Below are positions 37,152 to 40,541 of a stretch of DNA of 64,000 nt, one piece after another. The stretch spans positions 7,340,026 through 7,404,025 of the forward strand of contig JAAHII010000001.1 of NCBI GenBank assembly GCA_010671905.1, in the 5' to 3' direction. This DNA comes from Leptolyngbya sp. SIOISBB (lineage in GTDB: Bacteria > Cyanobacteriota > Cyanobacteriia > Phormidesmidales > Phormidesmidaceae). A model generated the notes under the pieces. It did no database searches. It saw only the letters and a list, made by a program, of their open reading frames with translations, and was not told the origin of the DNA. The translations under genes were made by a program, and so were the position numbers. Position 1 is the first letter of the stretch. Each line of letters opens with the position of its first letter.

Positions 37152-37370
37152 ATGGCTGTTGAAAAAGTAAACTCTTCGTCCAGTTTGGCTGAAGTTGTCG
37201 ATCGCATTCTTGATAAAGGTATTGTGGTGGATGCTTGGGTTCGCGTATCTCTGGTCGGTATTGAACTGTTGGCAATTGAGGCACGGGTCGTAATCGCATC
37301 TGTTGATACCTACCTGAAGTATGCCGAAGCTGTCGGTTTGACTGCCCAAGCTGCGGTTCCTGCTTCATAG
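37152..37370 (+). CDS. gvpA: Gas vesicle major structural protein GvpA
   Basis: A 72-residue protein that assembles into the ribbed gas-permeable shell giving buoyancy. The sequence [20 protein letters not shown], then [20 protein letters not shown] and [20 protein letters not shown], is the strongly conserved GvpA fold (helix, two beta strands, helix). The open frame begins at 37065, but the ATG at 37152 matches the family start exactly. A single gvpA copy is present; many cyanobacteria have several. gvpC follows after 305 bp. Confidence 0.98.
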
Positions 37371-37675: not shown

Positions 37676-38662
37676 ATGACGGCGATGGCGGCACTCCAAG
37701 AACAATGGGAAATGGCGCGAAAAGCGCGCCAACAAGAAATCGTTCAGCGCCAGCAAGCAGTGCAGGAAACGCTGGCTCACTGTCAGCAAAACCGTGAAGC
37801 AAATGCGGTAGACATGCGGGCAAAACTCGCAGCCTATTACGGTTCTGTGCAAGACGAAACGAAACTGTATCTGACGCAGGTTGAGCAACAGCGGCGAGTC
37901 ATGGCGCAGCAAACTGCTCAACAACTGCAGGTCTTTGATGCGGAATTGCGAGCAGTCGTTGCTGAGCTAAGAGCGGCGAACCAAGCAGACATGGCAGAAC
38001 TGCAACAGGTGACCCAAGAAGTGTTGGCTACTTACCAGCGCGATCGCGCTGTGATGCGCGACCAACAGCAGCAGGTGTTGTCTGAGTATGTTGATGAGCT
38101 TCAAGGAGCAGTGGCTGACTGTTTGGCCGAAATTGCCGGTAATCGACGGGCGATGGCAGTGGTTGACCAAGCTCAGCGCCACCGTGATCGCGAAGCCCTG
38201 ACCGATGATGTCGAAGCCTTACGCGAGGAATTCGCCATCTATCGGGAGCAAATGCGTGACTTTCGCGAAAATTTGAGGCAATCCGTTTGGGGAGACGCCA
38301 GTCCTACTGTGGCAACTCCTGCCAAGACCACGACTGATTCTAAAGCCTCGTCCCGCAATTCTCGTACTAGAGTTCAAGCGGGGGCGACCACCAAAGCTAA
38401 ATCAGCGGCTGCAACTAAGGGTGCTAAAGCTCCGGCACCAGTCGGGAAAAAGGCATCCCCAGCGAAATCAATGGTGCCGACCGAAGAAGCCGTATTTAAC
38501 TATTTGCAAGCCCATCATGATGGGGCGCGATTGACCGCAATTGAGTCAACTTTAGGCATTAATCGATTTCAGGCGGTTGACGCCCTACGATCGCTCATCC
38601 AAAAAGAGCTCATCGTTCAAAAAGATAGAACCTACCGTATCCAAGAGGAAGCCGTTCTGTGA
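37676..38662 (+). CDS. gvpC: Gas vesicle protein GvpC with an added C-terminal winged-helix-like domain
   Basis: A 328-residue protein; ATG 37676 or 37685. Residues about 10-206 are one long charged helix of Gln/Arg/Glu-rich, roughly 33-residue repeats, ending [12 protein letters not shown], which matches the C-terminal end of Anabaena GvpC. GvpC binds the outside of the shell and stiffens it. Residues 208-267 are a Thr/Ala/Lys linker. Residues 268-325 form a small helical domain ([20 protein letters not shown] then [11 protein letters not shown]) that looks like a winged helix and is nearly repeated at the end of GvpN. Ordinary GvpC lacks such a domain. The stop overlaps the gvpN start by 4 nt. 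Confidence 0.88.
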
Positions 38663-39912
38663 GCACCGTTTTACAAGCCCGCCCCCGTAACTTTGTCAGC
38701 ACCCCCGCGGTCGAACGCATTGCCCGCCGAGCCTTACGGTACCTCCAATCCGGTTATTCGGTGCATCTACGCGGCCCGGCGGGTACTGGCAAAACCACCC
38801 TGGCTCTGCATCTCGCAGATTTATTGAGTCGGCCCATCATGCTGGTGTTTGGCGACGATGAGTTTAAAACCTCTGATCTGATCGGTAATCAATCCGGCTA
38901 TACCCGTAAAAAGGTTGTCGACAACTTCATCCATAGCGTCGTCAAGGTGGAAGATGAACTGCGCCACAATTGGGTAGATTCGCGACTAACGCTGGCCTGC
39001 CGAGAAGGGTTCACGCTGGTCTATGACGAGTTCAACCGCTCGCGACCAGAAGTTAATAATGTGCTGCTGTCGGCCCTAGAAGAAAAGCTTCTGGTGTTGC
39101 CACCGAGCGGTCATCGCCCTGAATATCTACGAGTGAATCCCCATTTTCGCGCTATTTTTACGTCCAATCCAGAAGAATATGCGGGTGTGCATGGTACGCA
39201 GGATGCTCTGTTGGATCGGCTGATTACGATTCACATGCCGGAGCCCGATGAACTCACTCAGCAACAAATCCTGGTGCAAAAAGTCGGTATCGACTCAGCT
39301 GATGCGTTATTGGTTGTACGCCTCGTCAAAGCTTTTCATACCGAAATCGGTAGTCAAATAGCGACGAGTCTCCGGCCCAGCTTGATGATTGCCAATATCT
39401 GTCATGAGCACGGTGTGCCGATGATGACCGAAGATGCTGATTTTCGAGATGTGTGTAGCGATGTCTTGTTGTCTCGCATTACGAATGAGCTATCCACAGC
39501 GACTCAGGCTTTATGGGATGTCTTTAATGAATTGACCCTGGGCGTAGCGGTAACATCGACGGCGGCAGGGGCGATCGCAGCAACGGCTCAGCCAGACTCT
39601 AAATTGCCAAAAACTGGTTCGACTGGCTCTGAGAAACCTAAGTCTGCCACCAAAAAGGCAAAAGCTACCAATAGCACTAAATCGCCCGCCTCTGACGAAA
39701 CCGCTGAAGCAGCAGTTTTAGGAGAAATTGAATCTAGCATTTTGACCTTTTTGACCGCTAAAGACTCAGCCTCGCTGACAGAAATTGAATCAGAGTTGTC
39801 TTTGACTCGATTCAAAGCTGTAGATGCTCTGCGATCGCTGATCGAAATGGGCTATTTGCAAAAGCAGAATACTTCCGGTAAACCCGCTATCTATCGTTTG
39901 CAAGATAACTAG
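38659..39912 (+). CDS. gvpN: Gas vesicle AAA+ ATPase GvpN with an added C-terminal domain
   Basis: A 417-residue MoxR-type AAA+ ATPase from GTG 38659. Walker A is [14 protein letters not shown] (39-46), Walker B is [14 protein letters not shown], sensor 1 is [11 protein letters not shown], and the arginine-finger region is [15 protein letters not shown]. GvpN is needed for efficient gas-vesicle enlargement. The AAA core ends near residue 300. A Lys/Ser/Thr-rich linker (311-352) and a 60-residue domain (353-415: [20 protein letters not shown]) follow, closely matching the end of GvpC. It is translationally coupled to gvpC. An imperfect hairpin follows. Confidence 0.95.
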
Positions 39913-39967: not shown

Positions 39968-40178
39968 ATTCACTCGATCAACGGTCGCCAGGGAGCGTTT
40001 GCACTACTCTGCTAATTCCCTTAAGTCCGGTAAATGATGGTCGATCATTCTGGGTGAGTGGCTCACAATTGAAGCGATCGCACACAATTAGGCTAAACGC
40101 AGACATCGGCCAGGCTTGGCATGATAGCTTGCAATGACATCTGCAGGATCTGTGCCACTGCTGCACAAAGGGACAACT

Positions 40179-40541
40179 ATGACCGGCCAATCAATATCCC
40201 GCGCCTCAGGTACTAACCGCCCAATGGCCACAGCTACCCAAGGGTCAACCTTAGTAGATGTTTTGGAACGGGTATTAGACAAAGGCATCGTCATCGCTGG
40301 CGATATCTCCGTTTCTGTCGGCTCGACCGAATTGCTCACGATTCGCATTCGCTTGCTGGTAGCGTCAGTCGATAAAGCCCGCGAAATGGGGATTAATTGG
40401 TGGGAAAACGATCCCTATTTGAGTGCGCGATCGCAAGAACTCTTAACGGCTAACGAACAACTGCAAGCCCGAATTGAGAACTTAGAACAAGAGTTGAAAC
40501 TCTTGCGTGCTCAAGACGAAAGCGATGATGAGCATACCTGA
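40179..40541 (+). CDS. gvpJ: Gas vesicle protein GvpJ
   Basis: A 120-residue GvpA-related minor shell protein. It starts at ATG 40179, supported by AAAGGGAC upstream; an ATG at 40134 is possible. The core TLVDVLERVLDKGIVIAGDI and TIRIRLLVASVDKAREMGIN parallels GvpA, followed by the GvpJ-specific WWENDPYLS and a coiled-coil tail (LLTANEQLQARIENLEQELK). GvpJ likely caps or nucleates the vesicle. It ends the cluster; the next gene converges 30 bp away, so gvpK, gvpF/L, gvpG, gvpV and gvpW are not adjacent. Confidence 0.93.
   Translation: MTGQSISRASGTNRPMATATQGSTLVDVLERVLDKGIVIAGDISVSVGSTELLTIRIRLLVASVDKAREMGINWWENDPYLSARSQELLTANEQLQARIENLEQELKLLRAQDESDDEHT

Follow-up and report, generated by a model that had tools for sequence, protein, structure and literature searches.

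GvpC and GvpN, encoded side by side in a gas-vesicle gene cluster of Leptolyngbya sp. SIOISBB, both end in a small winged-helix domain (here called the tail), which is joined to the rest of the protein by a linker. The pair was found in the window, the whole stretch of 64,000 nucleotides that was analysed, and sequence comparison and structure prediction support a single fold and a common descent for the two tails. Tailed GvpC and GvpN are a widespread and old variant, and no description of the tails was found in the open-licence gas-vesicle literature searched. The best explanation, put forward tentatively and from sequence, is that they are tethered protein-docking modules which would bring the AAA+ protein GvpN to GvpC on the shell.

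The window genes run in the order gvpA-C-N-J on the forward strand, with gvpC positioned between gvpA and gvpN and overlapping the latter by 4 bases. The shell-protein gene gvpA (37152..37370) was recognised by its matches to NF006874 GvpA (138 bits) and Pfam Gas_vesicle (60.7 bits). gvpC (37676-38662, 328 aa) encodes a core that aligns with classical GvpC in hhalign (residues 1-206, 37676..38293), a 58-aa linker of Ala, Lys, Thr, Ser and Pro (38294..38467, net charge +10) and the winged-helix domain (residues 268-328, 38477..38659). gvpN (38659-39912, 417 aa) has a GTG start; its AAA+ body (residues 12-274, 38692..39480) is followed by a linker of about 63-65 aa, the borders of which are approximate (39526..39714, net charge +2), and by the C-terminal winged-helix domain (residues 353-417, 39715..39909). 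GvpN matches all 262 positions of the TIGR02640 model with 385.9 bits, above the curated cut-off of 266.8 bits, and its tail falls outside the model; the added linker and winged helix distinguish it from TIGR02640 GvpN. Its 417 aa compare with 308-388 aa for those tailless GvpN open frames that were examined. The gvpJ-like gene (40134..40541) matches Pfam Gas_vesicle with 56.9 bits; its top NCBIfam match, halo_gas_GvpJ, scores 58 bits, below the cut-off of 125. The start given is the first ATG and the real start may be 40179. Further gas-vesicle genes are scattered elsewhere in the genome: gvpK is found together with one gvpF/L gene at 5.67 Mb (G000:C1:5665802-5666987) and a second gvpF/L gene lies at 4.87 Mb (4869096-4869761), all well away from the gvpA-C-N-J cluster, which is at 7.38 Mb.

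The sequence-only reading had proposed that GvpC residues of about 268-325 and GvpN residues of about 353-415 match closely, and that both form a winged-helix-like domain. Both statements hold. The two tails are homologous, with 47% identity over 60 residues (E 5e-14) in a single pairwise comparison, and a search of the whole genome (8.34 Mb, 96.7% complete) with the GvpN tail gave, at E <= 1, no match other than itself and the GvpC tail (1.6e-6). The GvpN tail scores 27-28 bits against Pfam TrmB (PF01978), above the gathering cut-off of 25.6, which the GvpC tail, with 17 bits, does not reach; in the family alignments a TrmB match at E <= 0.01 was obtained for 33 of 39 tails from GvpC and 29 of 33 from GvpN. 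Using these alignments (39 and 33 rows, respectively), AlphaFold2 predicted the same fold for both tails, three helices H1-H2-H3 followed by a two-stranded wing as assigned by DSSP, with a mean pLDDT of 87.5 for GvpC and 86.7 for GvpN. Foldseek matched both models to many kinds of winged-helix proteins, some entries, such as ZitR 5yhz and 6fi9, being common to both lists; the closest solved folds are chiefly transcription factors, some with DNA. A sequence search of solved structures with the tails gave nothing significant. The likeness to winged helices of the TrmB/MarR/IclR type (PF01978 and relatives) is one of fold and sequence profile, and the difference is that the tails sit, via long linkers, on a shell protein and an ATPase. 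Residues E290, F/V298 and V301 (numbered here and below as in window GvpC), which are common to both tails, are presumably not part of the TrmB consensus.

The rest of the window GvpC was compared with classical GvpC. An alignment of 25 tail-bearing cores, the window core among them (as L008), matched one of 12 classical GvpC proteins with a probability of 99.3 and E 2.6e-20 in hhalign, and the alignment extends to a common C-terminal motif of both GvpC types. The window core ends in an 11-residue motif equivalent to FRQDLFVSIFG of classical GvpC. All 12 classical proteins end within 5 residues of this motif, whereas in window GvpC the linker and winged helix come next. The 33-residue GvpC repeats described by Pfam PF01304 were not matched in window GvpC or in its core; the same model matches the classical GvpC of L148 (250 bits) and L127 (125 bits). 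The tail-bearing core is thus, as judged by sequence, homologous to classical GvpC (PF01304), with which it shares its gene place and the helical core up to the end motif; it differs in having no detected repeats and in carrying the added linker and winged helix.

In the window's order, gvpN is present in 31 of 63 genomes and the domain in exactly those 31. Two matches, one to each tail, were found in 27 of these and a single match in four: in G024, G028 and G035 the locus begins at a contig end before gvpC (L021, L031 and L024), and in G029 the gvpN frame is broken, with tail pieces in other frames. In a sample of the phylum gvpN was present in 56 of 386 genomes, 19 of which have both tails, six the GvpN tail only (E <= 0.01) and none the GvpC tail only. 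The remaining 31 scored as having no tail, which is an upper bound because the best 15 candidates per genome were scored; one of them, G084, gave a weak GvpN tail in a later search of open frames. Genomes with both tails belong to nine family codes (f1, f4, f5, f7, f8, f11, f15, f28 and f29), so the suggestion that the pair is a local oddity of this operon was not borne out. The earlier statement that neither protein normally carries such a domain is correct for the Pfam and NCBIfam models and for the classical-GvpC clade, and wrong for cyanobacteria at large; likewise, both proteins regularly include the domain in many cyanobacteria, yet it is a long-known component neither in the family models scanned nor in the literature searched.

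The domain has little apparent use outside gas-vesicle genes. The phylum search matched 72 genomes, 47 of them beyond those described above: G132 and 46 genomes with weak matches (E 2.8e-6 or worse) in families f30 and f31. The latter were taken to be generic winged helices; the one that was examined is an iron-dependent repressor. Among the 26 matched genomes of the window's class, two weak non-gvp matches were seen, one in G132 (E 0.0011, three stops inside) and one on G274:C138, the third match in that genome (E 0.0056, outside the gvp cluster). A pattern scan of GTDB gave 41 loci, all in records titled cyanobacteria and including Leptolyngbya, Nodosilinea, Halomicronema, Oculatella and Stenomitos; as one short pattern was used, absence elsewhere is not implied, and 13 of the 54 pattern-matching stretches encoded no relative. 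gvpN adjoins 40 of the 41 loci, and at the exception, L188, the contig ends next to gvpC.

Several clusters depart from the arrangement of the window. In four genomes of family f7 (G394, G338, G436 and G187) some 6 kb separate gvpN from the tailed gvpC, which lies downstream of it at the far end of the cluster. A weak GvpN tail, scoring 29-37 bits, is retained in these genomes; the relocated gvpC (L122 89-2677, L123 29-2612) stands beside what appear by eye to be response-regulator genes. G322 has two gvp clusters (L131 and L132), one with tailed GvpC and GvpN and the other combining classical GvpC with a GvpN whose tail is divergent, and offers a natural comparison of both cluster types within one cell. 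A single cluster of G380 (L160) contains a pair of gvpN genes separated by about 4 kb; both are tailless, with closely similar C-termini.

The linkers vary greatly in length, from 25 to 145 aa in GvpC (n = 64, L138 being left out as the core-end motif was not found there) and from 17 to 398 aa in GvpN (n = 58), and the GvpN domain itself ends 0-43 residues from the C-terminus. The longest belong to G034 and G038 (L016 and L017), where a strongly acidic linker of 389-398 residues (net charge -100 and -106) between AAA+ body and winged helix brings GvpN to 762-770 aa. Linkers had been predicted for both window proteins, and both are present. Their description as Lys-rich suits the window and fails for the family, in which the GvpN linker is acidic (median charge -14.5, negative in 55 of 58 GvpC-GvpN pairs) and the GvpC linker mildly basic (median +5; 47 of 64 positive and 12 negative). 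The opposite charges are weak evidence for an interaction, since the C-termini of tailless GvpN are acidic too (17 of 19).

The history of the tails was followed on two trees. On a tree of 72 tails (64 columns) GvpC and GvpN tails group by type, with 5 changes compared with 24 in shuffles; two clean clades were not resolved, and the tree is consistent with one origin or more per tail type. The proposal that the domain spread by duplication within the operon fails for a recent event, as does gene conversion: the mean identity between the GvpC and GvpN tails of one genome (0.358) is no higher than that between tails of different genomes (0.338-0.368). The second tree, of 90 GvpN bodies, covered the order except for G045 (30 of 31 gvpN loci), 40 of the 56 gvpN genomes in the phylum sample and 21 of the 41 named loci; the remaining named loci were judged to duplicate the order set or to be closely related to it. 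L145 and L146 were omitted as copies of L014 and L006. An earlier tree, of 60 rows, lacked 26 rows that a narrow pattern had missed. For the 16 phylum-sample gvpN genomes outside the tree, tail status comes from the genome-wide profile search alone.

The 90 rows comprise 58 with both tails, 15 with neither, eight with the GvpN tail only, four with the GvpC tail only, four in which GvpC was not seen (contig ends) and one with a broken GvpN. At least 6 changes are needed to explain the distribution of the GvpC tail and 11 for that of the GvpN tail; a single clade of all rows lacking a GvpC tail is rejected (AU p 7e-5). One clade of 17 rows, with support of 100, has no GvpC tail; its GvpN tail is absent in 10 rows and weak in seven, and classical GvpC lies upstream of gvpN in 16 of the 17, L128 being the exception. 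We take GvpC of the Anabaena flos-aquae and Microcystis types to belong to this clade. Outside it, the GvpC tail is missing from L144, L158, L159, L160 (two genes) and L161, and for L159-L161 no GvpC was found by pattern. At L144 (G315) gvpN is preceded by two gvpC-like open frames, each of which ends shortly after the core and is tailless; G219 and G322, of the same genus code, have the full tail. Both tails are old, and the absence or decay of the domain in the classical-GvpC lineage may explain why it was overlooked.

Conservation is very strong in the GvpC tail, where E290, R297, R318 and Y320 occur in 63 of 63 sequences and F/V298 in 61. In the 58 GvpN tails from genomes with a GvpC tail the figures are 51 for E290, 57 for R297, 45 for F/V298, 54 for V/I301 and 49 for Y/F320. 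The eight GvpN tails from clusters lacking a GvpC tail are different: E290 is kept in one, R297 in four, F/V298 in one and V/I301 in none, while L304, L307 and Y/F320 are kept in all eight. In GvpN tails from clusters where GvpC is tailless, therefore, the core is held and most of the H2-H3 motif common to both tails is gone, which is to be expected if the GvpC tail, or a partner of both, was lost. These are not eight independent events, as seven belong to the 17-row clade; the eighth, L144 (G315), is the sole keeper of E290. The sister-pair tests lacked power both for tail co-loss and for covariation at position 298, where GvpC changed just three times on the tree, too few for a covariation test, and a partial Mantel correlation of 0.31 (0/2000) still contains phylogeny.

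The proposed mechanism treats GvpC and GvpN as an ancient paired module, each with a small winged-helix domain near the C-terminus on a linker of very variable length that is probably flexible and would act as a tether. Classical GvpC is reported on the outside of the shell (PMC9372576), elongation in other systems depends on GvpN, an AAA+ ATPase (PMC9372576, PMC11445434, PMC7204071), and ATPase activity was shown for GvpN of PCC 7120 (PMC7204071). As GvpC is bound outside the gas vesicle, its tails would project from the shell, and GvpN would probably form a ring from which its tails hang. The domains are most likely protein-protein docking modules: the GvpN tail would imitate the GvpC tail and join the same contact, either tail to tail or via a common partner, through an H2-H3 face made up of E290, R297, F/V298 and V301, which we expect to be exposed. 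This might hold the ATPase on the GvpC-coated surface, at the place of GvpA insertion or GvpC loading. A functional parallel is the C-terminal domain of Halobacterium salinarum GvpC, which is bound by GvpN and GvpO according to PMC9372576; the likeness proposed is one of function, and homology is not implied.

Homology, predicted fold, pairing, conservation and the erosion of the motif where the GvpC tail is absent were all observed, and homotypic or shared-partner docking fits best among the readings of the paired tails. A small domain repeated on both GvpC and GvpN at the end of a long, variable arm has the design of a docking module. Pairing points the same way, with the domain confined to the gvpN genomes of the order, no genome of the phylum sample having the GvpC tail only, and gvpN beside all but one of the GTDB loci; both proteins are still tailed in the four genomes with gvpC at the far end of the cluster, and the erosion of the GvpN motif agrees. 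Against docking stand the four genomes with a strong GvpC tail and no GvpN tail (L173, L191, L192 and L196), a genome search of which gave weak other matches in two (E 0.003 with a stop inside; E 0.013). The GvpC tail must act there without a GvpN tail. Furthermore, GvpN of L122-L125 (29-37 bits) has lost E290 despite the presence of a GvpC tail, E290 and R297 could form an internal salt bridge, and the nearest solved folds are those of transcription factors. This last point bears on a role in binding DNA or RNA, whether in tethering vesicles to the nucleoid or to mRNA or in regulating gvp genes, which would suit the winged-helix fold, the similarity to Pfam TrmB/MarR/IclR, the nucleic-acid binding of several top folds (AspA, Z-alpha), the mildly basic GvpC linker and the GvpC wing, which has mostly R/K at 316 (43 of 58) and R318 in 58 of 58. 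The charge of the tails themselves argues otherwise: the median net charge is -1.5 for GvpC and -1 for GvpN, negative in 36 of 64 and 33 of 58 tails and positive in 19 and 13, respectively, and a value of about -1 is unusual in DNA-binding domains. In addition, the third helix, which in true regulators reads DNA, carries D/N at 302 and hydrophobic F/V at 298, positions of that helix in TrmB-type domains being usually polar or basic. Near-neutral to acidic tails with hydrophobic and acidic or amide residues on this helix favour protein contact, and a nucleic-acid role is less favoured than docking and on the whole rather improbable.

Which protein would be contacted is a separate matter. The two tails might never touch and instead share a third protein as their binding partner, either a further Gvp or some factor of the cell. 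This is somewhat unlikely, though it agrees with the persistence of the GvpC tail in the four genomes above and with the seemingly greater conservation of GvpC tails (mean column identity 54% in alignment A3, against 36% for GvpN tails in alignment A2, which includes four rows, L126, L127, L128 and L131, from clusters without a GvpC tail); loss of such a partner would account for the eroded GvpN motif just as well, so that the erosion cannot separate this possibility from direct contact of the tails. It is unlikely that GvpC tails chiefly pair with one another, cross-linking ribs or neighbouring vesicles into gas vacuoles, with the GvpN tail joining or competing. Such pairing would account for the near-invariant GvpC tail and for its occurrence without a GvpN tail, and PMC9372576 places GvpC of H. 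salinarum and cyanobacteria on the outer surface, in larger amounts than GvpN, and reports a GvpC/C interaction in H. salinarum; but alone it leaves unexplained the GvpN tail found in 58 of the 62 scorable rows with a GvpC tail. That the tails are mere solubility or folding appendages with no partner is very improbable: the GvpN tail is indeed absent in several lineages, as its 11 changes on the tree attest, but specific residues are strongly kept over deep divergence beside linkers of widely varying length.

Returning to docking, its most specific form is that many cyanobacterial gas vesicles have a homotypic winged-helix 'velcro', by which GvpN would be loaded onto the GvpC coat through imitation of its tail, and that the classical-GvpC lineage lost this link; this is possible, if doubtful. 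GvpN is needed for vesicle growth past small bicones in other systems, and we know of no mechanism for how it reaches the shell. The laboratory models seem, as far as we can judge, to belong to the classical-GvpC lineage, and if the velcro idea is true the targeting of cyanobacterial GvpN has been studied only where the link is missing. Since coat and motor have a module in common, for which a candidate surface is defined and natural losses exist, the recruitment of GvpN can be tested directly, and the tail is a conserved handle that may sit outside gas vesicles and be of use for engineering. The vesicles of the classical-GvpC lineage may be a reduced version of the cyanobacterial system.
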